Below are positions 29,346 to 44,405 of a stretch of DNA of 62,247 nucleotides, piece after piece. How positions within the stretch are numbered: position 1 is the stretch's first letter; each line of letters starts with the position of its first letter. Position numbers and translations under genes: made by a program. Origin of the DNA: Burkholderiales bacterium. GTDB lineage: Bacteria > Pseudomonadota > Gammaproteobacteria > Burkholderiales > Burkholderiaceae_C. The notes under the pieces are model-generated. The model did not search any database, was not told the origin of the DNA, and was given only the letters and a program-made list of their open reading frames with translations. The stretch spans positions 1 to 62,247 of the forward strand of contig RXJV01000061.1 in NCBI GenBank assembly GCA_003963075.1, written 5' to 3'.

Positions 29346-30680
29346 ATGCTGACCCGACGCCATCTGCTCTCCCACGCCGCCGCACTGGCTGGCGCGTCCG
29401 CCCTGCCTTCGCTCGCCGCGCCACTGGCCGGCGGCGACTACCGCGCCCTCGTCTGCGTGTTCCTCTACGGCGGCAACGACGGCAACAACATGGTCATCCC
29501 GATAGACGCGTCCGGCTACGCGGCCTATGCGCGCGCCCGTGGCACGGCCGGCGCGGGCGGGCTGACGCTGCCGCAGTCGTCGCTCGCGCCGCTCAACGGC
29601 GGCGGCGTCGGGCTGCATCCGGCGCTCACGCCGCTGGCCGACGTGTGGAACCAGGGTCATCTCGCGGTGCAGGCCAATGTCGGCCCGCTGGTCAAGCCCC
29701 TGACGAAGGCCGAGTTCAATGCCGCCAACGCGCTGGTGCCGAGCAATCTGTTCTCGCACGACGACCAGCAGAACCAGTGGCAGCGCGGGCAGTCCTTCGG
29801 CGGCAACGCGGCCACCTCGCCCACCGGATGGGGCGGCCGCATCGCCGACCTGCAGCCGGCCGGCGTGGTGCCGATGGCGCTGTCGGTCAGCGGGAACAAT
29901 GTGTTCATGAACGGCATGGCCGCCCAGGGCCTGGCCGTCGGCACCGGCAACGGATTTGCGATCCGCGGCTTTGGTGGCAACCCCAGCACCAACCCTTTGT
30001 ACGCGCTCTACCAGAGCCTGCTGCAGCAGCCCTATGCGAATGCCGAGGAGCATGCCGCCGCCAGCGTACTCAAGCAGGCCATCAGCGCCAGCAATGCGCT
30101 CAACACGGCGCTGACCAGCGGCGGCAGCGTGGCCGGCCTGTTCAACGGTCTGAACAGCGGCATCGCCCAGCAGCTGCTCACGGTGGCCAAGATGATCGAG
30201 GCCCGCGCCAGCCTGGGCGCGACCCGCCAGCTCTTCTTCGTCAGCATGGGCGGCTTCGACACCCACAACGACCAGCTCAACCAGCAGAACCAGCTGTTCT
30301 CCGACCTCGGCCCGGCGCTGAAGGCCTTCTACGACGCCACCCAACAACTCGGCGTCGCCCAGGCCGTGACGACCTTCACCGCCAGCGACTTCGCCCGCAC
30401 CCTCCAGCCGGCCTCGGGCGGCGGCACGGACCATGCCTGGGGCAACCACCACTTCGTGCTCGGCGGCGCGGTCAAGGGTGGGCTCTACGGGCGCATGCCG
30501 CAGCTGGTGCTCGGCGGCCCCGACGACATGTCGGAAGAGGGCCGCTGGCTGCCGACCACGTCGGTGGACCAGATGAGCGCGACGCTGGCCAGCTGGTTTG
30601 GCGTCGGCGCGGCGGACCTGAACACCGTCTTCCCGCACCTGAGCAACTTCGCGGTAAAGAACCTGCGCTATTTCGGCTGA
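29346..30680 (+). CDS. DUF1501 family exported protein
   Basis: A 444-residue protein with a twin-arginine-like signal (MLTRRHLLSHAAALAGASAL), suggesting export in folded form. DUF1501 proteins belong to the alkaline-phosphatase-like/sulfatase superfamily. Visible family segments are ALVCVFLYGGNDGNNMVIP (about 35-53), FFVSMGGFDTHNDQLNQQNQ (about 298-317), the metal-site-like FTASDFARTL, and the near-C-terminal GGGTDHAWGNHHFVLGG (about 359-375). It partners the DUF1800 protein just upstream. No substrate is known. Confidence 0.9.
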   Translation: MLTRRHLLSHAAALAGASALPSLAAPLAGGDYRALVCVFLYGGNDGNNMVIPIDASGYAAYARARGTAGAGGLTLPQSSLAPLNGGGVGLHPALTPLADVWNQGHLAVQANVGPLVKPLTKAEFNAANALVPSNLFSHDDQQNQWQRGQSFGGNAATSPTGWGGRIADLQPAGVVPMALSVSGNNVFMNGMAAQGLAVGTGNGFAIRGFGGNPSTNPLYALYQSLLQQPYANAEEHAAASVLKQAISASNALNTALTSGGSVAGLFNGLNSGIAQQLLTVAKMIEARASLGATRQLFFVSMGGFDTHNDQLNQQNQLFSDLGPALKAFYDATQQLGVAQAVTTFTASDFARTLQPASGGGTDHAWGNHHFVLGGAVKGGLYGRMPQLVLGGPDDMSEEGRWLPTTSVDQMSATLASWFGVGAADLNTVFPHLSNFAVKNLRYFG

Positions 30681-30721
30681 GGCAGGGCCACGCCCACCGG
30701 ACGCCGCTTGTCCGGTACTGG

Positions 30722-30738
30722 CGGCCGCGCCGCGGCCG
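30722..30738. terminator. Strong GC hairpin between convergent DUF1501 genes
   Basis: CGGCCGCG at 30722-30729 is followed by a single C and its exact complement CGCGGCCG at 30731-30738. The hairpin lies between the plus-strand DUF1501 stop and the minus-strand small-peptide gene. It has no T tract on either strand, so intrinsic termination is doubtful; mRNA 3'-end protection or a pause site is equally plausible. Confidence 0.3.
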
Positions 30739-30825
30739 TCAGCCGCCGGACGCCACCAGCACGCAGTAGGCCAACAGCGCCGCCGAGAGGCACAGACCGA
30801 ACAACGGAACCGCGGTTTTCGACAT
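30739..30825 (-). CDS. 28-residue hydrophobic membrane peptide
   Basis: A very short open frame (ATG at 30825, TGA at 30739) preceded seven bases upstream by the strong ribosome-binding sequence GAGGAG. The peptide starts MSKTAVPLFG and continues as one hydrophobic stretch with two cysteines, ending VASGG: a single transmembrane span with a basic N-terminus. It lies 45 bp downstream of the minus-strand DUF1501 gene and is probably on the same transcript. I do not recognise a family. The strong ribosome site and the hydrophobic-only composition argue for a real gene; its short length allows chance. Confidence 0.5.
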   Translation of the reverse strand: MSKTAVPLFGLCLSAALLAYCVLVASGG

Positions 30826-30869
30826 GCTGCTCTCCTCGGGGTTGAAAAGCGTGGGGCGCAGTCCCGGCC

Positions 30870-32105
30870 TCAGGTGCGCAACAACCGACCGGCATCGCGC
30901 CACGGCGCGGGCGCACCGGGGAAGACCGCCGCCAGCGCGGCGTCATCCAGGCCCAGATGCCGCTGCAAGACCGGCGCCAGCACCTGGCGGAAGTCCGTGC
31001 GCACGGCAAGGTCGCGGCCATCGGCCAGCGCGGCGCGGTCCAGCCCGGGCCATTCGCCCAGCACCTGACCGCCCGCGACCGGGCCGCCCAGCAGCCAGAT
31101 GACGTTGCCGCGACCATGGTCGGTCCCGCCGTTGCCGTTCTGGCGCAGCGTGCGGCCGAATTCGCTGGCGACGACGATGACCGTGTCCTTCAGGCTGTCA
31201 CCCAGTCCAGTGGCGAGCGCGTCCAGGCCCTCGCCGAGACTGGCGAGCCGATTGGCGAGCTGCCCTTTGGCCGCGCCCTGGTTGACATGGGTGTCCCAGC
31301 CACCAACCGATGTGAACGCGAGCTGGGTGTGTGGGTCCTTGCGGATCAGGGTGCCCAGCCGCCGCGCATCGGCCGCAAAGCTGCGCGCGGACGGCGCACC
31401 GCCGTCGGCGCTCGGGTCCATCGAACGCTCCTCACCGCCTGCAGCCATGCTGCGCGCCATCTCGCCGCGGCCCTCGGTGGTGTCGTGCAGCGTGCTGCTG
31501 AGCTGGGGGTCGTTGGCATAGAGCTTGGCCAGACCCGCCTGCAACTGCGGGTTGTCGATCGCGCGGCGCTGCATCGCGCCCGGGCCCAGGCCCAGGCTGG
31601 CGACGCTGGCCGGGCCCGAGAAGATGCGCGGCGGCGTGCTGCCCTGGGCGATCGCCCGCGTCGGGCTGGGCTCGCCGGGAAGGGCACTCAGCAACCGGTT
31701 CATCCAGCCATCGGCCGTGGACTTGCGGCCCGGCGTGCCGGACTCGAAGTAGTCCTGGGCGTCGAAGTGCGAGCGCGTCGGGTCGGGCGAGCCGCTGGCA
31801 TGCACGAAGGCGAGCTGGCCGCCGTCCCAATGGCGCTTGAGCGGCGCGAGGGAGGGGTGCAAACCAAACAGGTTGTCGAGCTTGATCAGGCCATCCTGTG
31901 CGCCCGGCGGCGGCAGCGCGATCTGCGGCCGGCTGGCAGCGTACTCGCGCTCGCCGTAGGGGGCCACGACGGACAGGCCGTCGACCGCACCACGCAGCAG
32001 CACGACGACGAGCTTCTTGGGCGTAGCGCCTTCGGCGCGGACCAGGGACACCGGCAGACCGCCGAGCGTGAACGCGCCGAAATGCAGGAGTTGGCGGCGG
32101 AGCAT
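30870..32105 (-). CDS. DUF1501 family exported protein (second pair)
   Basis: A 411-residue relative of the protein at 29346-30680 but clearly diverged. The signal-like N-terminus is MLRRQLLHFGAFTLGGLPVSLVRA. Family segments include VVLLRGAVDGLSVVAPYG (about 34-51), HFDAQDYFESGTPGRKS, FTSVGGWDTHVNQGAAKGQL, VIVVASEFGRTL and GGTDHGRGNVIWLLGGPVAGG. Compared with the first copy it keeps the aspartate/histidine residues of these motifs. It starts 6 bp after the stop of the DUF1800 gene, the usual pair order. Confidence 0.9.
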   Translation of the reverse strand: MLRRQLLHFGAFTLGGLPVSLVRAEGATPKKLVVVLLRGAVDGLSVVAPYGEREYAASRPQIALPPPGAQDGLIKLDNLFGLHPSLAPLKRHWDGGQLAFVHASGSPDPTRSHFDAQDYFESGTPGRKSTADGWMNRLLSALPGEPSPTRAIAQGSTPPRIFSGPASVASLGLGPGAMQRRAIDNPQLQAGLAKLYANDPQLSSTLHDTTEGRGEMARSMAAGGEERSMDPSADGGAPSARSFAADARRLGTLIRKDPHTQLAFTSVGGWDTHVNQGAAKGQLANRLASLGEGLDALATGLGDSLKDTVIVVASEFGRTLRQNGNGGTDHGRGNVIWLLGGPVAGGQVLGEWPGLDRAALADGRDLAVRTDFRQVLAPVLQRHLGLDDAALAAVFPGAPAPWRDAGRLLRT

Positions 32106-32111
32106 GGCGGA

Positions 32112-33671
32112 CTACCTTTTCATGAAATCGGGGCTGGCGAGCAGCAGCGCCAGCTGCTGGCCGGCGGGCTCGGTGGCCAGCGTGCGGCGCGTGGGCTCGC
32201 TGAGCGAGGCGCCCAGGGTCGCACTGAGCCGCTCGGCGCTGATGCCGCTGCGCTGGCCCAGCGTCGTCGCCAGCTGCACCCGCTGGGTCAACGCCTCGGG
32301 GCTGCGCCAGGCGGCGGCCGTGTTCTTGTAGCCGTCGGGCGTCTGCGCGCCGTACAGCGGCTGGCCGGCCTGGGCCAGCGCGGCCAGCAGCGGGCGCGGC
32401 TCGGCCAGCGGCAGGTCCAGCGCGCGCAGGCTGGAGACGAGGTATTGGTAGGGCGTCTTGAACTTGGCCTGGTAGGCCTCGCGGCTCCAGAACTCGTCGG
32501 ACTTGATCAACGTGCGGGTCAGCTCGCGCAGGTCGCCGCCGGTCGCCTTGAAGTTGTCGGCCAGGCGGGCCACCAGCGCCGGCGGCGGCTCGTCCGCGAC
32601 AAAGGCCTGCGCGAACTGGAAGGCCAGATGCCGGGCCGTGGCCGGGTGGGCGGCGAGCACGTCCAGCGCGCGCTCGCCCTCGGCCTGGCCGGCGCCGCGG
32701 ATGCTCTGGCCCAGCCAGGTCTTGTCGCCACTGTCGTGCTTGTGCGGGTCGAAGGCGTAGAGGTCGCCCGTGCCACCGGCGAGGGCCTTGCGCATGTCGA
32801 TGCCCCAGCCGGTCAGCATGCGCGCAAGTTCGGTCACATCGCGCTGGCTGTAGCCGCCATCGACGCCCAGCGTGTGCAGCTCCATCAGCTCGCGGGCGTA
32901 GTTCTCGTTCAGGCCAGTCGGCTGTCGGGCCTTGAGCTCGGGCCGCGCATCGAGGAAGCGCCGCGCCCGCCGCGGCGGCTCATAGCCGGCCACGACACTC
33001 TGCGCGTTGTCGAGATAGGTCAGCATCGCCGGGTGCCGGGCCGTGGCGCCCAGCATGTCGCGAAAGCGGCCGAGCACGAAGGGCCGGATGGCGCGCTGCT
33101 CGTAGTCGGCCACCAGCACGCTGACCGGCCCCTTGCCAGCGAACACATTGAAGTGGTTGAACCAGAACTCGGTCAGCACCTCCTCCAGCTGGGCCGGGCT
33201 TTGCAGCGCCCGCGCCAGCCTGGCGGTGGCGGCCTCGGCCACCAGGGGCCTGACCTTCTCGCGCACCGCGTTGGCGGCGTCGGCGTCGGGCTTGATGCCC
33301 TGGGCCTGCTCGCGCTTGGCCTCGCGGACGGCCTTGATCGCCTCGCGGTAGCGACCGACGAGTTCGGCCTGGCCCAGGCTGAGCACCTCCAACGCGCTCA
33401 GTTGTTGCGTCAGGGATTCGGGTGCGGCCAGCCGGTTGGGCTGCAGCTGCTCGTCGAGGAAGCGGTCCAGCCAGGGACCGGCGCCCTGCTTGGCGATCGC
33501 GGCGGCGTCTGCCGGGCGGGGGCCGTAGCCCAGCCGGTTCAGTGCATGCAGAGCCCGTTCGTTGGCGCTGAGCGCGGGGGCGGACAGCGTGGCGGCTGGC
33601 GCACGCCGGGCCAGTATCAGCCCCCCGACCAACGCGGCGCCGGAGCTGAGCACGAAGCGTCGGTTTCTCAT
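32112..33671 (-). CDS. DUF1800 family exported protein (second pair)
   Basis: A 519-residue protein with a twin-arginine-like signal (MRNRRFVLSSGAALVGGLIL). DUF1800 features are LHALNRLGYGPRPADAAAIA (about 42-61), FWFNHFNVFAGKGPV, NENYARELMELHTLGVDGGY, LARMLTGWGI and a C-terminal LLASPDFMKR. It is the first gene of a minus-strand operon with the second DUF1501 gene and probably the 28-residue peptide. The pair faces the first DUF1800/DUF1501 pair tail to tail. The two DUF1800 proteins share motifs but little else, so this is not a recent duplication. Confidence 0.9.
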   Translation of the reverse strand: MRNRRFVLSSGAALVGGLILARRAPAATLSAPALSANERALHALNRLGYGPRPADAAAIAKQGAGPWLDRFLDEQLQPNRLAAPESLTQQLSALEVLSLGQAELVGRYREAIKAVREAKREQAQGIKPDADAANAVREKVRPLVAEAATARLARALQSPAQLEEVLTEFWFNHFNVFAGKGPVSVLVADYEQRAIRPFVLGRFRDMLGATARHPAMLTYLDNAQSVVAGYEPPRRARRFLDARPELKARQPTGLNENYARELMELHTLGVDGGYSQRDVTELARMLTGWGIDMRKALAGGTGDLYAFDPHKHDSGDKTWLGQSIRGAGQAEGERALDVLAAHPATARHLAFQFAQAFVADEPPPALVARLADNFKATGGDLRELTRTLIKSDEFWSREAYQAKFKTPYQYLVSSLRALDLPLAEPRPLLAALAQAGQPLYGAQTPDGYKNTAAAWRSPEALTQRVQLATTLGQRSGISAERLSATLGASLSEPTRRTLATEPAGQQLALLLASPDFMKR

Positions 33672-33922
33672 CGGCGTTCTCCGGTTCTGCGACCAGAGCA
33701 TCGCGGCGCTCACGCAAGGCCGTGTGGCCGGAGCGCAAAGTTTTGTGTCATGCCGGGCCGTGGCCCATCGGTCCGGCAATGCAGGGGCCAGCGTTCCGGG
33801 CCGCTACCGGTGGAACCGCAGGCTCTGCCCACCCGCAACTTTCAAAGTTATTGATAGCAACGCTCACGGTCGGCGGCCGAAATGCAGGGCCGCGGCATCG
33901 ATACGCCAAAACCGGCGCGCGC

Positions 33923-34654
33923 TCAGGCGGGCGGATCGCCGCGCAGCGCCGCCAGGCCTTGGGCCAGCGCGGGCCAGCCACCGGGCAGGGCCTGGCCCGG
34001 CGCCCAGGCCGCGGCGGTGTCCTCCAGCGCCCGGGCCTGCGCCGCCAGCGCGGGCTGGCCGATCAGCTCCAGCACGGCCTTCAGGCCGTGGGCGACGCGG
34101 CGCAGCCTGGCGACATCGGACGCAGCCACTGCCGCCTCGCCCTCGGCGATGTCGTCGGCAAAGCGCTCGACGCAGCCGGCGCGGAAGCGCTCGAACAGCT
34201 CGCGGTCGCCCGCGAAATGCTGCTGCACCGGGTCGTTCGGCAGCAACCCGGCGGGCGTTGGCGTCGCGCCCGGCCACAACAGTTCGGCCACGGTATCAAG
34301 CAGCTGCTGCAGGGGCACGGGCTTGTGCAGCACCCGCGCGACGCCGCTGGCGAACAGGGACTGCCGCCGCGCCTCATTCACGCCGGCGCTGAAGATGATC
34401 CAGGGCGGCGCCGCGCCCGCCCGCGCATGGCCCTGGGCGAGCAGGGTCTCAGCCGAGCCGTCGGGCAGCATCAGATCGCTGATGACGAGCTGCCAATCGC
34501 CCGCGGCCAGAGCCGCAGCCGCCGCGGCCAGATCGCGCACGACCTGCAGCGACACCGCCGCCGCCGCGTCCGGCGGGGACAGGTCTTCGAGCGCCATCTC
34601 GACGAAGCGCGCGATGGACGGGTCGTCCTCGATCAGCAGCACCCGTGCGGCCAC
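33923..34654 (-). CDS. Receiver-Hpt phosphotransfer protein
   Basis: A 243-residue cytoplasmic signalling protein. Residues 1-125 form a receiver domain with acidic pocket IEDD (8-11), phosphoacceptor Asp60 (VISDLMLPDG) and conserved Lys111 (HKPVP). Residues 150-235 form an Hpt-like helical bundle with phosphohistidine candidate His189 in AHGLKA. It has no DNA-binding or enzymatic output. It lies 10 bp downstream of the HTH-receiver gene in the same operon. This is the middle component expected in a His-Asp-His-Asp phosphorelay. Confidence 0.85.
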   Translation of the reverse strand: MAARVLLIEDDPSIARFVEMALEDLSPPDAAAAVSLQVVRDLAAAAAALAAGDWQLVISDLMLPDGSAETLLAQGHARAGAAPPWIIFSAGVNEARRQSLFASGVARVLHKPVPLQQLLDTVAELLWPGATPTPAGLLPNDPVQQHFAGDRELFERFRAGCVERFADDIAEGEAAVAASDVARLRRVAHGLKAVLELIGQPALAAQARALEDTAAAWAPGQALPGGWPALAQGLAALRGDPPA

Positions 34655-34664
34655 CGCGGCGCTC

Positions 34665-35297
34665 TCAGGCGGGCTGGGCGGGGGCGTCGACGTCCGCCGT
34701 GGCCTGCGCCAGCAAGCGCGGCAGTTCCGTCACCAGGGCGGTCTTGTGCACCAGGGGCACGCCCTCCAGCGCAAAGGCATAGGGCGCGCGCTGCGCCTCA
34801 TCCAGTGCGGTGACGACGATGAGCCGGCTGCGTGCGAACTGCGGATGCGAACGCAGGCTGGTGATCAGCGCGGCGCCATCGATGCCCGGCAACAGGATGT
34901 CGATCAGCAGCAGGTCCGGCTCCAGTCGGCCGGCCATCGCCAGGCCCGCGATGCCGTCGGACGCGACATGCAGTTGCGCATCCGGCAGTTCGCGCTTGAC
35001 GATGAGGCTGATCAGGTTCTGGAAATGCACCGAGTCTTCGATCAACAGCAGCGTCAGCGGCCGGCCCGGCGTCTGCGTCTGAGGAGCGGGCGGCGCGGCC
35101 GCACCGGCCTTGGCGGCGAGCCAGGCATCCAATGACGAACGCAGGATGCGCCGATGGCCCCCCGGCGTCTTCCAGGCCTGCAGCTCGCCCCGGTCGACCA
35201 TCAGTTGCACGGATCGCACGGCCATGCCGAGACGCTCGGCCGCTTCGGTCGTGGAACAGATTTCGGGCATCGGGGCGCTTGAGTTCACGCGAGACAT
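34665..35297 (-). CDS. HTH (BldC/excisionase type)-receiver regulator with reversed domain order
   Basis: A 210-residue regulator. The N-terminal 13-58 region is a winged-helix/MerR-like excisionase HTH (STTEAAERLGMAVRSVQLMV followed by AWKTPGGHRRILRSSLDAWL). A Pro/Ala linker leads to a complete receiver domain from about 80, with acidic pocket IEDS, phosphoacceptor Asp133 (LLLIDILLPG), Thr163 and Lys185. Most response regulators place the receiver first and the DNA-binding domain last, so the architecture is reversed. It is divergent from the HD-GYP gene across an AT-rich 88-bp region containing direct repeats, which it may bind. Confidence 0.85.
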   Translation of the reverse strand: MSRVNSSAPMPEICSTTEAAERLGMAVRSVQLMVDRGELQAWKTPGGHRRILRSSLDAWLAAKAGAAAPPAPQTQTPGRPLTLLLIEDSVHFQNLISLIVKRELPDAQLHVASDGIAGLAMAGRLEPDLLLIDILLPGIDGAALITSLRSHPQFARSRLIVVTALDEAQRAPYAFALEGVPLVHKTALVTELPRLLAQATADVDAPAQPA

Positions 35298-35333
35298 TTT
35301 GCCGAATTCATCGGACACAACCAGCTTCCAATT

Positions 35334-35361
35334 ATTTGATACAAGTGATTTTGATTTGATA
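35334..35361. promoter_or_regulatory. AT-rich divergent promoter region with ATTTGATA direct repeats
   Basis: Two copies of ATTTGATA at 35334-35341 and 35354-35361 lie exactly 20 bp apart, two helical turns, in an AT-rich stretch unlike the surrounding GC-rich DNA. It separates the HTH-receiver gene from the HD-GYP gene. Direct repeats suit cooperative binding by BldC-like HTH proteins, so autoregulation by the neighbouring regulator is a reasonable guess. GGAGGAG at 35374-35380 is the ribosome site of the HD-GYP gene. Confidence 0.5.
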
Positions 35362-35385
35362 ATTCGGTCCATTGGAGGAGACGCC

Positions 35386-36213
35386 ATGCAACTTGCCGCC
35401 CACGCATCGACGCCACACCCGCTCGCCTTCGACGCCAGCGCCTGCGCGCAAATGGAGCGCCTGCTGAGCGACCTCGGCCGCGTCTACCACGAGCGCACTG
35501 CCGCGCTGCAGGCGCTGGAGCGCGCCCACCATGAGGCGCTGATGCGGCTGGCCGCGGCGGCAGAGCTGCGCGACGACGACACGGGCATCCATATCGTGCG
35601 CCTGGGCTATCTGGCCGAGTCGCTCGCACTGCGCCTGGGCGTCCCACCCGAGCGCGCCCAGGTGCTGCGGATGGCGGCGCCCATGCACGACATCGGCAAG
35701 ATCGGCATTCCGGACTACGTGCTCAAGAAGCCGGGCCAGTTGACCGCCGAGGAGCGCGCGCTGATGCAGACCCATCCGCGCATGGGCGCCGACATCCTCG
35801 GCAGTTCCCGGATCCCGATCTTCTCGCTCGCCGCCGAGGTGGCGCTGCACCACCACGAGCGCTGGGACGGCAGCGGCTACCCGCGTGGGCTGGCCGGCGA
35901 GGACATCCCGCTGTCTGGGCGTATCGTTGCCGTCGTGGACTATTTCGACGCGCTGACCATGGACCGCTGCTACCGCCCGGCGTTTGCCGACGACCGCGCG
36001 CTGGCGATGCTGGTCGACCAGTCGGGACGCGGCTTCGACCCGGCCATCGTCGACGCCTTCGTGGCCCATGCGCCCGAGCTGATCGAACTGCGCGAATGGG
36101 TCAACCGCACCAAGCCGGGCTTCGGCGCGCTCGGTACACCGCTCACGGCATTGCAGGCGCCGCCGCCGGGGTTTTCTGACCTGCTGCGCGCGCCGGCCGA
36201 GGCCTGGGCATGA
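35386..36213 (+). CDS. HD-GYP domain c-di-GMP phosphodiesterase
   Basis: A 275-residue cytoplasmic protein whose HD-GYP domain (about 50-245) is expected to hydrolyse c-di-GMP. Catalytic residues are present: His101-Asp102 in HDIGKIGIPD, His155-157 in HHHERWDG, and GYP at 164-166. The N-terminal 45 residues are a short helix (RVYHERTAALQALERAHHEA) with no receiver domain, so control must come from transcription or a partner protein. The start follows a very strong GGAGGAG. The next gene overlaps it by 4 bp. Confidence 0.9.
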   Translation: MQLAAHASTPHPLAFDASACAQMERLLSDLGRVYHERTAALQALERAHHEALMRLAAAAELRDDDTGIHIVRLGYLAESLALRLGVPPERAQVLRMAAPMHDIGKIGIPDYVLKKPGQLTAEERALMQTHPRMGADILGSSRIPIFSLAAEVALHHHERWDGSGYPRGLAGEDIPLSGRIVAVVDYFDALTMDRCYRPAFADDRALAMLVDQSGRGFDPAIVDAFVAHAPELIELREWVNRTKPGFGALGTPLTALQAPPPGFSDLLRAPAEAWA

Positions 36214-37010
36214 AGCGCCTCGCTGCTGTTGCGCTGACGCTGACGCTGGCGCTGGCGGCCACGGCTGCCACGGCCGTGGCTGCGCAAGGCACCGGCCAGC
36301 GCGTGCGCGACAGCGGCGAGCTGCGCGTCTGCATCTGGCCCGACTACTACGGCATCTCGCTGCGCAATCCGCGCACCGGCCAGCTGGCCGGCATCGACAT
36401 CGACCTGTCCGCGGCCTTCGCGGCCGACCTCAAGGTCACGCCACGCTATGTCGATTCATCCTTCGCGACCCTGATCGACGACCTGCTGCAGGACCGCTGC
36501 GACGTGGCGATGTTCGCGGTCGGCATGACGGCGCAGCGCCAGCAGGCACTGCGCTTCAGCCGGCCCTATCTGCAGAGCGACATCTACGGCGTCACGACCC
36601 AGAGCAGCCGCGTCGTGCAGCGCTGGGAAGACATCGACAAGCCCGGCGTGCGCGTCGCGGTGCAGGCCGGCACCTTCATGGAGCCGGTGATGGCGGCGGC
36701 GCTCAAGCAGGCCACCATGGTCATCGTGCGCCCGCCCGAGACGCGCGAACGCGAGCTGGAGGCCGGTCGCGTCGACGTCTTCATGACCGACTATCCCTAC
36801 AGCCGCCGGCTGCTGGACAACGCCGACTGGGCGCGCCTCGTCGCGCCGCCGCAGCCGTTCTCGGTGCTGCCCTATGCCTACGCCGTCAAGCCGGGCGACG
36901 CCGCCTGGCTGGCCACCGTGGACGAGTTCGTCGCGCGCATCCAGCAGGATGGCCGGCTGCTGGCCGCGGCCAAGCGCCATGGCCTGACCGCCATCGTGCG
37001 CACCCGCTGA
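36210..37010 (+). CDS. Periplasmic amino-acid-type solute-binding protein (sensor partner)
   Basis: A 266-residue exported protein (signal MKRLAAVALTLTLALAATAATAVAA) of solute-binding protein family 3. Typical elements are LRVCIWPDYYGISLRNPRTG, LAGIDIDLSAAFAADL (about 60-75), CDVAMFAVGMTAQRQQALRF and the hinge segment VRVAVQAGTFMEPV. No ABC permease or ATPase follows. Instead it is sandwiched, with 4-bp and 1-bp overlaps, between an HD-GYP phosphodiesterase and a histidine kinase, so it probably senses a ligand and signals rather than transports. The ligand is unknown. Confidence 0.85.
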   Translation: MKRLAAVALTLTLALAATAATAVAAQGTGQRVRDSGELRVCIWPDYYGISLRNPRTGQLAGIDIDLSAAFAADLKVTPRYVDSSFATLIDDLLQDRCDVAMFAVGMTAQRQQALRFSRPYLQSDIYGVTTQSSRVVQRWEDIDKPGVRVAVQAGTFMEPVMAAALKQATMVIVRPPETRERELEAGRVDVFMTDYPYSRRLLDNADWARLVAPPQPFSVLPYAYAVKPGDAAWLATVDEFVARIQQDGRLLAAAKRHGLTAIVRTR

Positions 37011-39511
37011 TGCACCCTCGCGCACGCTGGCGCCCGAGCAACATCACGGCCGGCGTCGGCGTCCTGCTCGCGGCTGCGCTGCTGGCCGGCACCGGTTTCA
37101 ACCTGTGGCGCGATCACCGCGACCTGCATGCCGAGGCGGCCGACCGGCAGACGCTGCTCGCGCGGGTGCTCGAAGACCACGCCAGCCGCAGCCTCGATGC
37201 GACGCAGATCGCGCTCGCCGCCCTGGCCGACGTGGCCGCGCGCGGCGGCCCGCCGGACGTCGTCCAGGCTCTGCTCGGCCAGACCCAGGCCAGCCTGGGC
37301 TTTCTGCGCGGCGTCGTGCTGCTTGACGCCAGCGGCCGCGTGCTCGCGGCGGCCGACCCGAGCGACCGCGGCGTGCAGATCCCGCCCACCGCGCTGGGGC
37401 CCTGGCCGGCCGCCGGGCGCGACGCGGTCGGCCGCTTCGTGCCCGGCCGCAGCCTGGCCAGCCTGAGCGGCGGCGCGTCGGCCGTCGTGCCGCCCGGTGT
37501 CGGCTTCATTCCGATGATGCGCAGCCTGCGCCTGCCGGACGGCCGCACGCAGCTGCTCGCGGCCCTGCTGAATCCCGACGCGCTGGCGAACTTCCAGCAG
37601 CTCACCCTGGGTGACTCGCACAGCGCCGCCGCGCTGGTGGCGCTGGACGGGCAGTTGCTCGCGGCGACGATGCAGTCCGGCCATGTCGCCGGCGAGCAGG
37701 TGGCGGCGCTGCTCGGCGCCGAGCTGCCGCTCGCGCGCGTGCGCGCCGGCAGCGAGCACGGCCGCTGGCAAGGGCCAGGGCTGCGCGCCGAGCCGCAGCT
37801 GGGCGCGTTCCGGGCCCTGCGGGCCCGGCCGCTGGTCGTGCTGGTGGAGCTGCCGCAGGAGGAGCTGCGCCGCCAATGGCTGCTCGATGTGCGCGACATC
37901 GGCCTGCCGGCGCTGGCCATCGCGGCGGCGCTGCTGGTGCTGTCCAACATCGGCGCGGCGGCCCTGCGCGGACGCGAACGCACGACGCTGGCGCTGGACG
38001 CCGCACGCCACCGGGCCGCCGAGCGCGAACGCGAGCTCAGCGCCATCTTCGGCAGCGTGCAGGACCTGCTGTTCCGCACCGATGACAGCGGCCGTGTCAC
38101 CTTCATCAACGAGCGCTATGCCCAGCTCAGCGGCCACCCGGTGTCGCATGCACTGGGCCTGCCCTTGCAAAGCTTCTTCGGCGGCGCCGCGGCGGTGGCG
38201 GCGCTGTTCGAGCACCAGCCCGGCCCCGACGACCAGCTGCCACGGCATGCACGCGCCGACTGGATCGCGCCGAACGGCCAGGCCCACAGCTTCGAGATCA
38301 CGCTGGTGCCGCTGCGCCGCGCCCCCGAGCGGCTCGAATGGGTTGGCAGCGCGACCGACGTCAGCGAGCTGATGCGGGCCCATGCCGAATTGCGCGCCCA
38401 GCTCGGCCTGGCACGCTCGCTGCTGGCGAGCAGCCCGCTGCCGATGTCGCTGCTGGACCGCCAGCACCGCTACCTCGATGTCAACCGCGCCTGGGAGCAG
38501 TTCACCGGGCGGCGCCGCAGCGACGTGCTGGGCCAGCCGGCGATCAGCGAGCTGCCACCCGACGAGGCGCGCGCACGCGAGACGCAGGACGCCGAGCTGC
38601 TGGAACGCGGCGGCGAACTGCGCTATGAGACCGTCTGGCAGGACGCCGATGGCGGCCGCCGCGACATCTTCATCACCAAGTCCACCTTTCCGGGCGCCGA
38701 CGGCCGCCCGCTGGGCCTGGTGGTCTGCTTCATGGACATCAGCGAATTCCGTGAGGCCGAGCGTGCGACCCGCGCCGCACGCGACGCCGCACTGGAAACC
38801 TCGCAGGCCAAGTCCGAATTCATCGCCAATGTCAGCCATGAACTGCGCACGCCGCTGCAGTCCATCCTCGGCTTCTCCGAGCTCGGCACGCTGCGCGCGC
38901 GGCACGAGCCGCGCCTGGCCGGCATGTTCGCCGACGTGAACCGCGCCGGCCAGCGCATGCTGGCCCTGGTGAATGACCTGCTCGACCTCAGCAAGATCGA
39001 ACAGGCCCAGGAGCCGCTGCGCCTGGACCGCCACGACCTGCGACCACTGGTGCGCGAGGTGGTGGCCGAGCTGCAGCCGCTGCTGCAGGGCCGCGCGCTG
39101 GACGTGGACTGCGCACTGGGCAGCACGCCGCTGGTCGCCCGTGTCGACGCGGCCCGCTTCCAGCAGGTGGTGCGCAACGTGCTCGCCAACGCGATCAAGT
39201 TCTCGCCGCAGGGCGCCCGCATCGAGGTGCACGGCCGGCATGCGCCGGATGGCCAGGTGCGGATCGACGTGGCCGACCGCGGCCCGGGCATCCCGCCCGC
39301 GGAGCTGGAGAGCGTGTTCGAGGCCTTCGTGCAGTCCAGTGCGACCAAGGACGGCGCCGGCGGCACCGGCCTCGGGCTGGCCATCTGCCGCCGCATCATG
39401 CAGGCCCACGACGGCCGCATCTGGGCCAGCAACCGCGACGGCGGCGGCACGCTGCTGCACCTGAGCCTGCCCGGCGCCCGATTCGGCGACACCGCACCCG
39501 TGGCGCTTTGA
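37010..39511 (+). CDS. PAS-domain sensor histidine kinase with periplasmic sensor domain
   Basis: An 833-residue membrane kinase. Two helices (about 14-32 and 303-325) flank a periplasmic domain resembling dCache/double-PAS sensors. Two cytoplasmic PAS domains follow (about 345-455 and 470-590, the second with TPxPGxDGRPLG-like end), then HisKA and HATPase_c. The phosphoacceptor is His610 in SHELRTPLQS; the N box is NVLANAIKFSP, G1 is DRGPGIP, and G2 is GTGLGLAI. It has no attached receiver. It overlaps the binding-protein gene by one base, suggesting the periplasmic protein and kinase act together. Confidence 0.9.
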   Translation: MHPRARWRPSNITAGVGVLLAAALLAGTGFNLWRDHRDLHAEAADRQTLLARVLEDHASRSLDATQIALAALADVAARGGPPDVVQALLGQTQASLGFLRGVVLLDASGRVLAAADPSDRGVQIPPTALGPWPAAGRDAVGRFVPGRSLASLSGGASAVVPPGVGFIPMMRSLRLPDGRTQLLAALLNPDALANFQQLTLGDSHSAAALVALDGQLLAATMQSGHVAGEQVAALLGAELPLARVRAGSEHGRWQGPGLRAEPQLGAFRALRARPLVVLVELPQEELRRQWLLDVRDIGLPALAIAAALLVLSNIGAAALRGRERTTLALDAARHRAAERERELSAIFGSVQDLLFRTDDSGRVTFINERYAQLSGHPVSHALGLPLQSFFGGAAAVAALFEHQPGPDDQLPRHARADWIAPNGQAHSFEITLVPLRRAPERLEWVGSATDVSELMRAHAELRAQLGLARSLLASSPLPMSLLDRQHRYLDVNRAWEQFTGRRRSDVLGQPAISELPPDEARARETQDAELLERGGELRYETVWQDADGGRRDIFITKSTFPGADGRPLGLVVCFMDISEFREAERATRAARDAALETSQAKSEFIANVSHELRTPLQSILGFSELGTLRARHEPRLAGMFADVNRAGQRMLALVNDLLDLSKIEQAQEPLRLDRHDLRPLVREVVAELQPLLQGRALDVDCALGSTPLVARVDAARFQQVVRNVLANAIKFSPQGARIEVHGRHAPDGQVRIDVADRGPGIPPAELESVFEAFVQSSATKDGAGGTGLGLAICRRIMQAHDGRIWASNRDGGGTLLHLSLPGARFGDTAPVAL

Positions 39512-39604
39512 GCCGGCAGCGGCCGACATATCGGCAAATATGTGATGCATCTCACAGACGATAAAACTGATTTCAAATATCATTTTTATCAAACGGAGGT
39601 CGAT

Positions 39605-40687
39605 ATGCACACCACTCTTGCCGAAATCCTCGAGAACCAGAAGTCGGGACTGCTCTGGGTCAGCCAGGACGGCGTCGTCCGCTATGCCAACGGTGACGCC
39701 TGCAGCCGCACCGGGCTGGCCGCCGGCGGCAAGCTCTACGACCCGGATCTGGCACGCGCGGTCATGCAGGCGGTGCTGCATCGCGCCAGCGCGGCCGTCA
39801 ACGCCACCGGCCGCCCCGGTCAGCCGGGCGAACCGGCGCCGGAGCTGCGCTGCCGCGTGGTGCCCGGCCTGTCCAAGGACGATGCCTTCGTCTTCATCCG
39901 CGACGCCGTCGCGGCCGACCCTGGCATCGCATTCGAGAACCTGATGCAGATCATCCGCAGCGACCTCGCGGCGCCGCTGCACGATGCCCAGCGCGCGATG
40001 GAGGTGCTGGAGCCCGACCTCGCCAGCCAGGCCGAGCCGCTGCTCACCAGCATCACCGATGTGCTGCAGGTGCTGGACAAGCTGGTCGACCTGGCGAGCC
40101 TGTGGAGCAGCTCCTCGCTGATGGCCAACGACCGCATCGAACTCTGGCCGCTGCTGCAAAGCGTCTGGTCGGAACTGCAGCCGCAGGCGATGTCGCGGCG
40201 CGTGCAGGTTCGCTTCCAGGCCCAGGACGAAGCCGCCAACCTGGCCACGCTCTACGGCAGCGAGCCGTGGATGCGCCGGGTCTTCCTCGAATGCCTGGAG
40301 GCGGCGATCCGCGCCGAACCGCCGGGTGGCACGGTGCTGATCGAGCACCGCCAGTTCGGCCCGCGCGCGCTGATCGTGCTGCGCGACAGCGGCGTGTTCT
40401 CGCACGGCACACGGGGCGTCGAACTCGGCCCGCTGCCCAAGGGCCGGCCGGGCACGGCCGCAGCGCGCGAGCGCATCGGCTTTCACCTGTGTCGGCAGAT
40501 CCTGGCCCTGCACGGCGGCCAGCTGAGCGACGAAGAGGAAGACGGCACGCGTCATCTGCTGATCGACCTGCCGACCGGCGCACCGCATCGCAACGTCGAC
40601 ACCCAGATCGATATCGCCCAGGCCCAGCGCTACGCCAGCGACCTGGCCGCCCTGATGGCTAGGGCGCGGCGCAGGAGCGCCGCCTGA
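39605..40687 (+). CDS. PAS-containing histidine-kinase-like protein lacking the phospho-His
   Basis: A 360-residue cytoplasmic protein built like a histidine kinase. A short PAS-like N-terminus (EILENQKSGLLWVSQDGVVR) precedes a DHp-like helical hairpin (109-165) and a degraded ATPase domain. The H-box, normally (S)HDLRTPL, reads RSDLAAPL, so Ser119 replaces the phosphohistidine. The N box is eroded (FLECLEAAIRAEPPGG) and G1 reads DSGVF. It is likely a pseudokinase that regulates or scaffolds neighbours; His126 one turn further on is a remote alternative acceptor. The ATG at 39605 follows a good GGAGG; an AT-rich 93-bp region precedes it, with an ACATAT/ATATGT inverted repeat at 39525-39542. 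Confidence 0.8.
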   Translation: MHTTLAEILENQKSGLLWVSQDGVVRYANGDACSRTGLAAGGKLYDPDLARAVMQAVLHRASAAVNATGRPGQPGEPAPELRCRVVPGLSKDDAFVFIRDAVAADPGIAFENLMQIIRSDLAAPLHDAQRAMEVLEPDLASQAEPLLTSITDVLQVLDKLVDLASLWSSSSLMANDRIELWPLLQSVWSELQPQAMSRRVQVRFQAQDEAANLATLYGSEPWMRRVFLECLEAAIRAEPPGGTVLIEHRQFGPRALIVLRDSGVFSHGTRGVELGPLPKGRPGTAAARERIGFHLCRQILALHGGQLSDEEEDGTRHLLIDLPTGAPHRNVDTQIDIAQAQRYASDLAALMARARRRSAA

Positions 40688-40719
40688 ACCATCGCACCCA
40701 CTTGCCCGAGGAGACCATC

Positions 40720-41091
40720 ATGAAGCGCGTTCTCATCGTTGAAGACCAGGCCGACATCCGCAAGCTCATCCACATGACGCTGGAGTTCGAGGCCTACGAG
40801 ATCCACGAGGCCGCCGACGGCGTCACCGGCCTGCGGCTGGCGCGAGCGCTGCGCCCCGACCTGATGCTGCTGGACGTGATGATGCCCGGCGAACTCGACG
40901 GCCTGCAGGTCTGCCAGCGCATCAAGGCCGATGCCGAGCTCGCTGGCATCAAGATCGTGCTGCTGACCGCACGCGGCCAGGCTCGCGACCGTGAAGCGGG
41001 CAGCAAGGCCGGCGCAGAGGAATACCTCGTCAAGCCCTTCAGCCCGCTGCAGCTCATCGACACCATCGAACGCCTGACCGCCACCGCCTGA
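40720..41091 (+). CDS. Stand-alone receiver (CheY-like) response regulator
   Basis: A 123-residue single-domain receiver. The acidic pocket is VEDQ (7-10), the phosphoacceptor is Asp52 (LMLLDVMMPG), the Thr switch lies in VLLTARG, and the lysine in YLVKPFSP. The start at 40720 follows GAGGAG at 40708-40713. It sits between the pseudokinase and the large PAS kinase and has no output domain, so it either acts by protein contact or shuttles phosphate between kinase and Hpt. It is a natural partner for the kinase immediately downstream (23-bp gap). Confidence 0.9.
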   Translation: MKRVLIVEDQADIRKLIHMTLEFEAYEIHEAADGVTGLRLARALRPDLMLLDVMMPGELDGLQVCQRIKADAELAGIKIVLLTARGQARDREAGSKAGAEEYLVKPFSPLQLIDTIERLTATA

Positions 41092-41113
41092 GCGCGCCAC
41101 CACGGAGACCGCC

Positions 41114-43693
41114 ATGCGCCGCCCTGCCCCACCCCGGCTGCTGGCGCCCCGGCGCTGGCGGCTGCGCCATCAAGTGCTGTGTCTGCTGGCCGGCGTCACG
41201 TCGCTGACCATGCTGCTGCTGTCGCAGATTTCCAGCCACCGTCTCACCCAGGTCGCCAATGACAGCGCACAGCGCTGGGCCCAGGCGCTGGTGCACACCG
41301 CCGCCGCCGGTGCGGCGGCACGGCTGGCGGCGCACGACAACGCGGGCCTTGAGATGGGCCTCCGTGAGCTCGCCACGCTGCCGGGCGTCGTGCGCATCGA
41401 AGCGCTGGACGGCCAGGGCCGCCTGCGCGTTGGCCTGTCGGTGTCGGCGGACCGCCGCGTGCAGGCCAGTGAGCAGCCGGCGCCCGATCAGGTCGGGCTG
41501 GACATGGCCTGGGCGCCAATCGGACCCGGCGGCCGCGACGGCAGCATCGGCATCGCCGTGACGCCCCAGCAGGAGCTGCTCAACCTGGATGCGCTGCGCA
41601 TGGACAGCGTGCTGGCCATCGGCCTGAGCGGTCTGCTGAGCATCCTGGGTGCATCGCTGCTGATGGCCTGGACGCTGGCGCCGCTGCAGCGCGTGGCGGC
41701 GTTTTCGCGCCGGCTGGTGCGCGACCCGGTGGCGCGCCTGGACACGCATGCCGGCAGCCATGAGGTCAGCGAGCTGGCCCATGCGCTGAACGAAGCGGCC
41801 CAGGCCCTCCAGGAACAACATGCGGCGCTGGACTCCGGCGACCGCCACACCCAGGGCATCCTCGGCGCCGTGCCCGATGCACTGCTCGGCGTGGACGCGC
41901 GCGGACGCATCCTCAGTGCCTCGCCCGCCGTCGCCAGCATCTTCGGCCGCGAGCCTCAGGACCTGATCGGGCACAACCTGGCCGAGCTGCTGCCCGAGCT
42001 GGACGGCGACGAGATGGCCCGGCGCACCCGCGAGGGCCTGTACATGCGCGCCAGCGGCACCCATCTGGCCCGCTTCTCCTGCGAAGCGCTGCGCCATGGC
42101 GGCACGCCGTTTCCGGCCGAGGTGTCGCTGGCCCGGCTCGACCCGCTGCCGGACGACGCCGACGCCGGCCTGCGCTATGTCTGCGCGGTGCGCGACATGA
42201 CCGACCAGCGCATGCTCGACGCGATGCTCAACCTCTATGTTCGCGCGCTGGAGTGCAGCAGCAACGGCGTCATCATTGCCGACCTCGGGTTGCCCGGCCA
42301 GCCCATCATCTATGCCAATGCCGCCTTCGGCCGCATCACCGGCTTTGACCGGCACCAGATCATCGGCCGCGGCTGCAACATGCTGCTGGGCGAAGACCTC
42401 GACCAGCCCGAGAGCCGCGCGTTGGACGATGCCATCACCGCCGGGCGCAGTGCCACCGTGGTGCTGCGCCACTACCGCGCCGACGGCAGCCTGTTCTTCG
42501 ACGAGGTGTCGGTCGCGCCGGTGCTGGACGAACTGGGCGAGCCCCAGCACTACGTCTACATCCTCAATGACGTGACCGAACGCGAACGCGCCCGCCTCGC
42601 GATCGCCGAGCGCAATGCGCGACTCAACGCCGTCTTCGACCTCAGCCCCGACGGCTTCGTCGTGTTCGACCGCGAAGGCCAGCTCGTCTATGCCAACCAG
42701 GCCTTCCTCGCGATGACCGGGCTGAGCGGTCAGGTGCTGGCCGAAGGCCTGAGCCTGGCCGAGTTCGATCTGCGCCTGGCCAGCTCCTGCGCCCCGGAGG
42801 CGCCCTATCCGCCGACCCATCTGGCCGCAGACGCCAGCCAGCGGGTCGAACTGCTGCAACTGGCCAAGCCGGGCGCGCGCGTGCTGACAAGGCTGACCCG
42901 CCACAACGCCGGCGGCCAGGGCGAGTCCATCCTCTACTTCCGCGATGTCACCCACGAGACCGAGGTGGACCGCATGAAGAGCGAATTCCTGACCACGGCC
43001 GCCCACGAGCTGCGCACCCCCATGGTCAGCGTGTTCGGCTTCACCGAACTGCTGCTGCAGCGGCCGGTGCCCGAGGGCCGCCGTCGTGATGTGCTGGAGA
43101 CCATCCATCGCCAGGCCTCGCTGCTGATCACGATGATCAACGACCTGCTGGACCTGGCGCGCATCGAGTCCCGCCAGGGCCGCGACCTGCGCCGCGAGAG
43201 CGTGCCGCTGGGCGAGCTGGTGCGTGACACCGTGGCGCGGATGACCGGCGCCCTCTCCGGCCACGAGCTGCGCGTCGAGCTGCAGGCCGCCCACGCGACG
43301 GCCGCGCTCTGGGCCGACGCCACCAAGACCTCGCAGGCGCTGACCAATGTGCTGTCCAACGCGATCAAGTACTCGCGCCCCGGCACCGTGGTCCGCGTGT
43401 CCAGCCTGGAGCGCGAGGGCCGCTTGGGCATCGTCGTCAGCGACCAGGGCATCGGCATGACGACGGCGCAGCTCGCACGCATCTTCGAGCGCTTCTACCG
43501 TGCCGACCCCAGCGGCAACATCCCGGGCACCGGCCTGGGCATGAGCCTGGTCAAGGAGATCATGGAGCAGCAGCAGGGCGAGGTCGAGATCCGCAGCGAG
43601 GCCGGCATCGGCACCGCCGTCACGCTGTGGCTGCCGCTCGCGGCAAGCGCCGCTGGCGCGCAGGCCGCGCTGCCCGCCCCGGCGGGCGGATAG
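41114..43693 (+). CDS. Large PAS/LOV-like sensor histidine kinase
   Basis: An 859-residue membrane kinase. Two helices (about 20-40 and 170-190) flank a short periplasmic loop, followed by a HAMP-like segment and three PAS domains (about 245-365, 375-490, 495-610). The second PAS is LOV-like: the sequence GRGCNMLLGEDLDQPESRAL resembles the LOV core GRNCRFLQG, with Cys421 at the photoactive position, but several FMN-contacting Asn/Gln residues are replaced. HisKA His631 (AHELRTPMVS) and HATPase_c motifs (NVLSNAIKYS, DQGIGM, GTGLGMSL) are intact. No receiver is attached; the small receiver upstream is probably its partner. Confidence 0.9.
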   Translation: MRRPAPPRLLAPRRWRLRHQVLCLLAGVTSLTMLLLSQISSHRLTQVANDSAQRWAQALVHTAAAGAAARLAAHDNAGLEMGLRELATLPGVVRIEALDGQGRLRVGLSVSADRRVQASEQPAPDQVGLDMAWAPIGPGGRDGSIGIAVTPQQELLNLDALRMDSVLAIGLSGLLSILGASLLMAWTLAPLQRVAAFSRRLVRDPVARLDTHAGSHEVSELAHALNEAAQALQEQHAALDSGDRHTQGILGAVPDALLGVDARGRILSASPAVASIFGREPQDLIGHNLAELLPELDGDEMARRTREGLYMRASGTHLARFSCEALRHGGTPFPAEVSLARLDPLPDDADAGLRYVCAVRDMTDQRMLDAMLNLYVRALECSSNGVIIADLGLPGQPIIYANAAFGRITGFDRHQIIGRGCNMLLGEDLDQPESRALDDAITAGRSATVVLRHYRADGSLFFDEVSVAPVLDELGEPQHYVYILNDVTERERARLAIAERNARLNAVFDLSPDGFVVFDREGQLVYANQAFLAMTGLSGQVLAEGLSLAEFDLRLASSCAPEAPYPPTHLAADASQRVELLQLAKPGARVLTRLTRHNAGGQGESILYFRDVTHETEVDRMKSEFLTTAAHELRTPMVSVFGFTELLLQRPVPEGRRRDVLETIHRQASLLITMINDLLDLARIESRQGRDLRRESVPLGELVRDTVARMTGALSGHELRVELQAAHATAALWADATKTSQALTNVLSNAIKYSRPGTVVRVSSLEREGRLGIVVSDQGIGMTTAQLARIFERFYRADPSGNIPGTGLGMSLVKEIMEQQQGEVEIRSEAGIGTAVTLWLPLAASAAGAQAALPAPAGG

Positions 43694-43823
43694 GCGCCAC
43701 ACAAGACGTCAATCCAGGCGCCAATCCGGGCGCCAATCGAGACGCGGCGCTGGCGCCACGGTGACAGCCTGCGGGCCCGGCCGGGGCACAGAATCCGGAG
43801 CACCGATCCCTCCCGAAAGCCTC

Positions 43824-44405
43824 ATGAGCACACGCGCCCGCTTCACCCGCATGGACGAGAGCACCCGCGAGGACTGGGCTCTGATCGTGCCCGAGGCGAT
43901 GCAGATGGCACGCGGCCTGCCCGACCGCGTGCTCGCCCATCTGCGCCTGCTGGATGGCGATTTCGGCGGCTTCCCGGTCGACCGGCTGACCCACAGCCTG
44001 CAGGCCGCCACCCTCGCGCATGCGGACGGCCGCGACGAGGAATATGTTTGCTGCGCGCTGCTGCACGATATTGGCGACACCCTCGGCAGCTTCAACCACC
44101 CGGACATCGCCGCCGCCATCCTGAAGCCCTTTGTCAGCGAGGCCAACCTGTGGATGGTCCAGCAGCACGGCATCTTCCAGGGCCACAACTTCTTCCACCA
44201 CATCGGCCTGGACCGCGACCTGCGCGAGCAGTTCCGCGGCCATCCGCATTTCGAGCGCGCGGCCGAATTCGTCGCGCTTTACGACAACCCGGCCTTCGAC
44301 CCTGAGGCCGAGGCGCTGCCGCTGGCCTTCTTCGAGCCCCTGCTGCGCCGGCTGATGGCCCAGCCGCGGCAGTCCATCTACAAGGCCGCGACAGCCCTGC
44401 GCTGA
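43824..44405 (+). CDS. HD-domain protein of the PhnZ/inositol-oxygenase-like group
   Basis: A 193-residue HD-fold protein. Metal-binding motifs are His57 (RLTHSLQAAT), His81-Asp82 (ALLHDIGD) and His115 (WMVQQHGIFQG), followed by HNFFHHIGLDRDLREQFRGH and ERAAEFVALYD. From memory this pattern matches the mixed-valence diiron oxygenase branch that includes PhnZ, rather than a nucleotide phosphohydrolase. No phosphonate genes lie nearby, so the substrate is open. The ATG at 43824 is preferred over the upstream open frame, which has no ribosome site. It stands alone, 130 bp after the PAS kinase. Confidence 0.8.
   Translation: MSTRARFTRMDESTREDWALIVPEAMQMARGLPDRVLAHLRLLDGDFGGFPVDRLTHSLQAATLAHADGRDEEYVCCALLHDIGDTLGSFNHPDIAAAILKPFVSEANLWMVQQHGIFQGHNFFHHIGLDRDLREQFRGHPHFERAAEFVALYDNPAFDPEAEALPLAFFEPLLRRLMAQPRQSIYKAATALR

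Follow-up and report, generated by a model that had tools for sequence, protein, structure and literature searches.

Several kinds of bacterial signalling system resemble parts of the locus described here. RpfC/RpfG uses a receiver (REC) and an HD-GYP domain as its signalling output. In Caulobacter CckA is a hybrid and ChpT carries no receiver, and the H-NOX networks of Shewanella and Vibrio have members named HnoK and HnoB. Our locus is an island of eight genes at 33923-43693 of the window, which is the whole stretch analysed: 62,247 nucleotides, positions 1-62,247 of the forward strand of contig RXJV01000061.1 (assembly GCA_003963075.1) from a Burkholderiales bacterium (Burkholderiaceae_C). 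The genome of this organism (G000) is 4.65 Mb and 95.65% complete. The island holds a phosphorelay module and a module built around a pseudokinase, and both carry a predicted operator, a 9-bp direct repeat. The same repeat is also found before chemotaxis, cyclic di-GMP (c-di-GMP) breakdown and H-NOX genes in this genome or in related ones, so the island, as it occurs in Roseateles-type bacteria, seems to form the centre of a motility circuit. Whether two modules have indeed merged here into the hub of a circuit for c-di-GMP and chemotaxis we consider an evenly balanced question.

The closest described systems each share part of this plan. In Shewanella, H-NOX networks are known that act on c-di-GMP and have a feedback regulator, and the portion of PMC8738867 on the HnoC/HnoD network of Shewanella and Vibrio describes an H-NOX-adjacent kinase, feedback by a DNA-binding regulator and a c-di-GMP phosphodiesterase as output, much as we propose here. 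Unlike in that network, as described there, our receiver is separate from the HD-GYP protein, a pseudokinase lacks the phospho-accepting His, a receiver-histidine phosphotransfer (REC-Hpt) relay has a periplasmic input, the H-NOX pair is found in trans and the regulator belongs to the HTH_17 type. NosP-NosK-NosR of Burkholderia also joins a kinase to an HD-GYP-domain output, in nitric oxide (NO) signalling within the Burkholderiales. However, NosR has its REC and a degenerate HD-GYP fused in one protein, and the account of the system in PMC12570481, in the sections that concern it, has no relay, pseudokinase or helix-turn-helix receiver regulator (HTH-REC). Streptomyces BldC is a MerR-like winged helix of the HTH_17 type with 9-bp direct-repeat operators, but in the part of PMC5859096 that describes it BldC is a lone domain of 68 residues, whereas ours is fused to a receiver and the sequence match is weak. 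The DivL/DivK-CckA-ChpT-CtrA pathway of Caulobacter, as outlined in PMC5361649, pairs a pseudokinase with a single-domain receiver and relays to a DNA-binding regulator; its gene set is unrelated to ours, and the His position in our pseudokinase family is S, T, A, L or E. The operon in the relevant part of PMC5192318 is a different Burkholderia operon. We found no description of the cluster in the open-licence full-text literature, and since subscription papers mostly lie outside it, absence from print is not proven.

The relay module has the order REC-Hpt <- HTH-REC | REC -> HD-GYP -> SBP -> HK1. It is syntenic in related genera, and this order is the common plan in Acidovorax and its relatives. 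In the window, REC-Hpt (33923..34654; Pfam Response_reg and Hpt) and the HTH-REC response regulator (34665..35297; Pfam HTH_17, BldC-like, and Response_reg) lie on the minus strand, and the other six genes called from open reading frames and Pfam lie on the plus strand. Divergent from these two are an HD-GYP c-di-GMP phosphodiesterase with no receiver of its own (35386..36213; Pfam HD_5), a family 3 periplasmic solute-binding protein (SBP; 36210..37010; Pfam SBP_bac_3) and the membrane histidine kinase HK1 (37010..39511; Pfam PAS/HisKA/HATPase, a dCache fold and no receiver). A first-pass annotation made from the sequence had named all eight genes, and their Pfam domains agree; its divergent operon is also there, with the HD-GYP start corrected to about 35386. 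Synteny was examined in named genomes, where 412 HTH-REC relatives were confirmed and the best 80 were used. REC-Hpt directly follows HTH-REC in 71/80 loci and HK1 is on the strand opposite to HTH-REC in 63/80. SBP is present in 52/80, HD-GYP in 42/80 and a lone REC directly divergent from HTH-REC in 29/80; all five relay partners occur together in 18/80. The adjacent REC-Hpt is missing from 9/80 loci, two of which (L123 and L111) fail through a mis-set frame; beside the HTH-REC relatives of L074, L083, L092, L097, L100, L125 and L127 no REC-Hpt was found. An HTH-REC relative (E 1e-25) is present in 52 of the 399 genomes of our Burkholderiales sample.

The phosphoacceptors are strongly conserved. 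In aligned rows (L053 and L099 come from a single genome, and in 10 rows, belonging to 9 loci, translation was continued past an in-frame stop, shown as X), Asp60 and His189 of REC-Hpt are each found in 75/75, the receiver Asp, Lys and Thr of HTH-REC each in 84/84, His610 of HK1 in 66/67 with one row gapped, and the lone-receiver Asp in 46/46. The acceptor residues named by the first-pass annotation are therefore the invariant ones, although its Asp133 in HTH-REC holds for a start at MSRVN (35297) and becomes Asp124 if the start is MPEIC (35270). A kinase without a receiver, Asp and His intermediates and a terminal Asp regulator make up the full His-Asp-His-Asp set. These stations were first placed on separate proteins, but Asp60 and His189 share one polypeptide, so the four stations lie on three proteins. 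We infer the order of the relay from sequence. The AlphaFold2 (AF2) model of HK1 residues 1-345 has a predicted local distance difference test score (pLDDT) of 94.4 and places a dCache sensor between two long helices; the best Protein Data Bank (PDB) match of this sensor is the sensor domain 3lif, with a template modelling (TM) score of 0.78 normalised by target.

The HD-GYP of the window has intact metal-ligand columns, and its best match is the NCBIfam NosR model at 128.6 bits against a cut-off of 400. Unlike in RpfG, REC and HD-GYP are separate genes here, and no single chain holds both in the window or in the listed relatives. The two genes overlap by four bases at L132, L103 and L134. One can imagine that the HD-GYP decays once its receiver is lost, an idea that came from 12 loci of the Roseateles lineage with a degenerate HD-GYP and no REC. 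It was weakened because all 12 form one clade, and because six genomes (G001, G009, G011, G015, G018 and G019) have an intact REC-HD-GYP pair elsewhere with the same operator; these pairs are on another contig and their ligand residues were checked. The calls of a degenerate HD-GYP at L096, L101 and L055 are split or short frames rather than decay, and the different HD-GYP (36%) of L073, L090 and L108 was left out of the HD-GYP tree.

The second module follows HK1. It consists of the pseudokinase psHK (39605..40687), which matches only HATPase in Pfam and has a Ser at the phospho-His position, a lone receiver (40720..41091; Pfam Response_reg) and the PAS/LOV histidine kinase HK2 (41114..43693; Pfam PAS/HisKA/HATPase, His631), all on the plus strand. 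No His is found at the phospho-His position in 14/14 aligned psHK sequences; the L147 row is the most distant (22% identity) and its alignment is uncertain. The AF2 model of psHK (pLDDT 74.3) is PAS-DHp-CA, where DHp is the dimerization and histidine phosphotransfer domain and CA the catalytic domain, with a conserved C-terminal helix. Its fold matches kinases, RetS and DivL among them. With a His-less kinase fold and a neighbouring gene for a single-domain receiver, psHK has these two features of a DivL-type pseudokinase, and DivL/DivK is a precedent for a pseudokinase reading such a receiver, according to the relevant part of PMC5361649.

The distribution of psHK implies that the two modules have separate histories. 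The order psHK-REC-HK2 occurs at only 7/80 named loci, counted by psHK. In the window, L057 (Roseateles saccharophilus DSM 654, which has the whole island), L070 and L072 (where the contig ends before HK2) it comes after HK1, and it stands in a second position beyond REC-Hpt in the Rubrivivax loci, L123 and G021. None of the 9 relay loci with psHK has the relay's own REC, and none of the 31 loci with the relay REC has psHK (L053 and L099 again counting as a single genome). In the 50 genomes behind the named loci psHK is found in 8, at the relay locus in 5 and elsewhere in 3. In the Burkholderiales sample it reaches at least 190 bits in 8/399 genomes while the next matches are at most 90 bits; in 6 of the 8 its distance from HTH-REC is no more than about 5 kb, and the gene after it is a REC in 8/8. 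When the search was widened beyond the order to 369 genomes sampled from the class, the psHK of the window was the only one at E 1e-30. In a receiver tree the lone receiver of the window and the psHK-linked receivers group with H-NOX-cluster receivers, apart from the relay receivers. Support for this is moderate (bootstrap 81 / SH-like approximate likelihood ratio test 95), short of the star mark of the tool. Tree and loci together suggest that the relay receiver was lost and that the psHK-linked one now stands beside the relay. The first-pass annotation, which saw a single island, was half right: the components of its relay are all there and are conserved, but the relay is only one of two merged modules, which a shared operator and a wider chemotaxis/c-di-GMP regulon tie together, the lone receiver is not the relay's own by the tree, and the second module stands beside H-NOX elsewhere. 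Synteny of the whole cluster, which it had proposed to check, extends over many related loci for the relay half, so a lack of synteny does not count against that half, but the psHK half is limited to the seven loci above.

HK2 was first called a LOV-like kinase. The kinase is there, but its light-oxygen-voltage (LOV) domain looks decayed, with motifs GRGCNMLLG / LFFD / ILND in the window against canonical ones in L146, L160, L227 and L239; this reading uses what we take to be the flavin-binding residues of the LOV motif. The Cys is retained here with the neighbouring motif residues altered, and in L070 the Cys is gone too. The DHp of HK2 is 78% identical to that of the H-NOX-linked kinase, 61% to that of a kinase on C20 and 40% to that of HK1. 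We argue from this that HK2 and the H-NOX-linked kinase probably share the psHK-linked REC and that HK1 probably serves REC-Hpt. Pelomonas aquatica (L069 / G005) keeps a psHK-type receiver, and some 90 bp before it there is an exact operator; the genome yielded no psHK and this locus no HK2.

The operator, TATCA-N4-TATCA, lies before psHK and between HTH-REC and HD-GYP. The exact copy TATCATTTTTATCA (39578..39591, plus strand) is 13 bases from the psHK ATG, and the copy AATCACTTGTATCA in the divergent HTH-REC/HD-GYP promoter (35337..35350, minus strand) has one mismatch. TATCA occurs in 66/70 intergenic regions between HTH-REC and the divergent gene (69 of them distinct) against a mean of 10.8 and a maximum of 20 in shuffles, which were first-order Markov resamples rather than strict dinucleotide shuffles. 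At least two copies occur in 23/70 against a mean of 1.2 and a maximum of 5, and the commonest ATCA-ATCA spacing is 9 bp (43 pairs). A site with at most two mismatches is present in 14/19 psHK upstreams and 6/254 control upstreams. TATCA-type repeats were also seen by eye in distant clusters that hold HTH-REC (L140, L143, L139 and L144). It must be noted that CGGCAAA(AT) stands a few bases before the HTH-REC start (35280-35320 in the window) and CGGCAAA is in 36/70 intergenics; it may be a -10 element, in which case the message would have no leader or hardly any.

The same site was searched for across genomes. The window genome has three exact copies, at 39578-39591, at C90:9329-9342 and, inside an open frame, on C42. 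In 12 further genomes 19/23 exact sites lie up to about 300 bp upstream of target-class genes, and in another 12 genomes 9/11 do; with the reversed pattern the two sets have 5 and 2 sites. The target classes are psHK, REC, HTH-REC, REC-HD-GYP, cheW, methyl-accepting chemotaxis protein (MCP) and CheY genes, plus H-NOX. Overall 30/37 exact sites are on target across 25 genomes, a tally that is descriptive since the analyst picked the genomes and defined the classes after the sites were seen; the reversed-pattern count is the cleaner control. In one set of further genomes the target names come from local profiles, not Pfam. Two of the 30 (G001, L287/L290, overlapping) precede a gene called MCP by eye, in whose first 482 residues Pfam finds no family. 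The six off-target sites in the 24 further genomes are inside or beside unrelated frames. G021 has a second HTH-REC paralogue (L293:1-1366) with an exact operator about 135 bp upstream, and the N-terminus of the gene after it resembles the pseudokinase by eye. In L298 (G006) the gene just past REC-Hpt is cheW-like and has an exact operator of its own.

The operator would also connect the island to H-NOX, although by Pfam no island protein is an H-NOX and the island therefore lacks the H-NOX beside a kinase that marks an H-NOX network. The only H-NOX found in the window genome is on contig C90 with an HNOBA-kinase next to it (L242:6900-9136), and no response regulator was found beside this pair. 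The exact site at C90:9329-9342 is 80 bases before the ATG of this H-NOX gene. Fifty-nine distant HTH-REC loci were fetched, with H-NOX and HNOBA called by local profiles and Pfam run for selected proteins only. Four of these (L140, L143, L146 and L160) hold HTH-REC, psHK, REC, H-NOX and HNOBA-kinase, and L139 and L144 hold HTH-REC, REC and HNOBA-kinase. In Rubrivivax albus psHK, REC, H-NOX and HNOBA-kinase stand in a row (L238, by local profiles), and at the relay locus of the same genome (L106) HD-GYP is present without a REC. The first-pass annotation had neither the operator common to the two modules nor the H-NOX pair in trans; both are additions of the present analysis.

We argue that HTH-REC is the likeliest reader of the predicted operator. 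Its HTH_17 match of 47.2 bits in Pfam indicates a MerR-like winged helix of the type to which BldC belongs. BldC protomers bind 9-bp direct repeats head-to-tail (the structural part of PMC5859096), and 9-bp repeats are conserved at the promoter of HTH-REC itself in many loci.

From here on we describe a model, which covers every phosphotransfer, HTH-REC as reader, the contacts among receiver, psHK and HD-GYP and the identity of the ligand; the genes, synteny, invariant residues, operator statistics and gene trees on which it is built were computed here. A periplasmic amino-acid-type binding protein, the dCache domain or both would set the activity of HK1. Phosphate would pass from HK1 His610 to REC-Hpt Asp60, then to His189 and finally to HTH-REC Asp133. 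HTH-REC would read the 9-bp direct repeats head-to-tail as BldC does, and would thereby control the promoter region that it shares with the divergent HD-GYP operon. It would also control the operon of psHK, REC and HK2 and, on other contigs, the H-NOX/HNOBA-kinase pair and probably an MCP gene. In a second branch HK2 and the H-NOX-linked kinase, with their near-twin DHp domains, would phosphorylate the lone receiver. The His-less psHK would pass no phosphate but would read or tune this receiver, which in turn would adjust HD-GYP activity, as an RpfG split over two proteins. In its boldest form, which we hold only tentatively and think could well be wrong, a BldC-like domain with a receiver would be both the endpoint of a periplasmic-ligand relay and the master switch of c-di-GMP and chemotaxis. 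An H-NOX branch would enter through a dedicated psHK/receiver pair, a betaproteobacterial counterpart of DivL-DivK, and the pseudokinase module would have docked beside the relay twice or more, each time replacing the relay receiver.

Several observations weigh against this circuit. The loci are related to each other, so the counts are not independent, and the degenerate HD-GYPs, being one clade, amount to a single event. REC is retained at 8 loci where HD-GYP was not found. In the genomes of L132, L093 and L106 psHK is away from the relay locus, and G287 and the genome of L132 have the relay REC plus a distant psHK module with its own HD-GYP. H-NOX or HNOBA is at only 6 of the 59 distant loci and the other 53 have neither; the H-NOX pair of G015 has no operator. 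The psHK upstreams of L089, L238, L146, L147 and L160 miss the site at two mismatches or fewer (in L146 and L160 psHK comes after HTH-REC on the same strand). With one mismatch allowed the window genome has 22 sites (19 beyond the three exact ones) against 11 for the reversed pattern, so these sites are weak evidence singly; among them are the one at 35337 and another on C156, some 70 bp ahead of an MCP-like gene. The HTH matches the BldC chains 6amk/6ama weakly (E 0.64/0.99), and its best PDB match is 8jbs (E 0.0046), another MerR-like domain. G013, 91% complete, has two sites, at cheW / REC-HD-GYP and at an MCP, but no HTH-REC was found in it, which means either an assembly gap or another reader. 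Seven genomes have HTH-REC but no exact site (G002, G004, G007, G008, G012, G016 and G022). Covariation between kinase and receiver, the pairing test proposed by the first-pass annotation, was run on shallow alignments (effective sequence numbers 39.9, 14.8 and 22.2) and the top pairs are scattered.

One alternative is a plain linear relay, HK1 -> REC-Hpt -> HTH-REC, as in the first-pass annotation, with psHK-REC-HK2 as an unrelated downstream neighbour. The relay half is indeed far more widely conserved, G005 keeps the relay at a locus that has neither psHK nor HK2, and three of the eight genomes with psHK have it away from the relay. However, an unrelated neighbour does not explain the exact operator before psHK, the proximity of psHK to HTH-REC in other families too, or the fact that relay loci with psHK are always ones that lack the relay REC, and we consider this scenario unlikely. 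It is even less probable that phosphate runs the other way, and we think this the least credible scenario of all. Hpt shuttles and phosphatase modes of kinases are known, so REC-Hpt could be a phosphate sink, or a shuttle working in reverse, through which HTH-REC or the lone REC loses its phosphate to HK1 acting as a phosphatase. Sequence cannot give direction, and the invariant D60 and H189 are compatible with either.

The other alternatives concern the operator. Another motility regulator could read it, which would make HTH-REC a target rather than the reader. The sites of G013, the seven HTH-REC genomes with no exact site and the many chemotaxis genes among the targets all fit this. Against it, the repeat is conserved in the HTH-REC promoter, TATCA-type repeats are found in distant HTH-REC clusters, the second HTH-REC paralogue of G021 has an exact site, and among the genomes in which HTH-REC is lacking there is no exact site in G020 and a single, unrelated one in each of G023 and G014. 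A 9-bp direct repeat also suits a BldC-like domain, going by the structural part of PMC5859096. A different reader seems doubtful to us. The H-NOX link could instead be a relic, if the psHK module was once controlled by NO and the operator at the H-NOX gene has no present role. H-NOX is in only G000 and G015 of the 40 genomes searched, the window genome included, and G015 lacks the operator. But a relic has to account for an exact site 80 bases upstream of the gene in a genome of 4.65 Mb with only three, and for the DHp similarity of HK2 and the H-NOX-linked kinase, and so we do not expect this explanation to hold. The hub of two operator-tied modules is the scenario we prefer.

The neighbourhood of the island is partly conserved as well. 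An HD-domain protein at 43761-44405 with weak PhnZ/Phn-HD similarity is near the cluster end in many Roseateles loci, and it is retained even at loci without psHK-REC-HK2. On the other side REC-Hpt is flanked at 29346-33779 by a DUF1800 gene (Pfam) and DUF1501-like neighbours (by eye). The DUF1800 flank is maintained in most same-genus loci.

If the circuit is as we propose, it would make a clear test case of the way in which separate inputs are brought together by pseudokinases and phosphotransfer proteins. The fusion of a BldC-like domain to a receiver suggests that head-to-tail DNA binding of the BldC kind may be under receiver control. For studies of motility and c-di-GMP in Roseateles and related bacteria the analysis also gives a DNA motif, which can be tested without knowing the ligand, and a list of targets.

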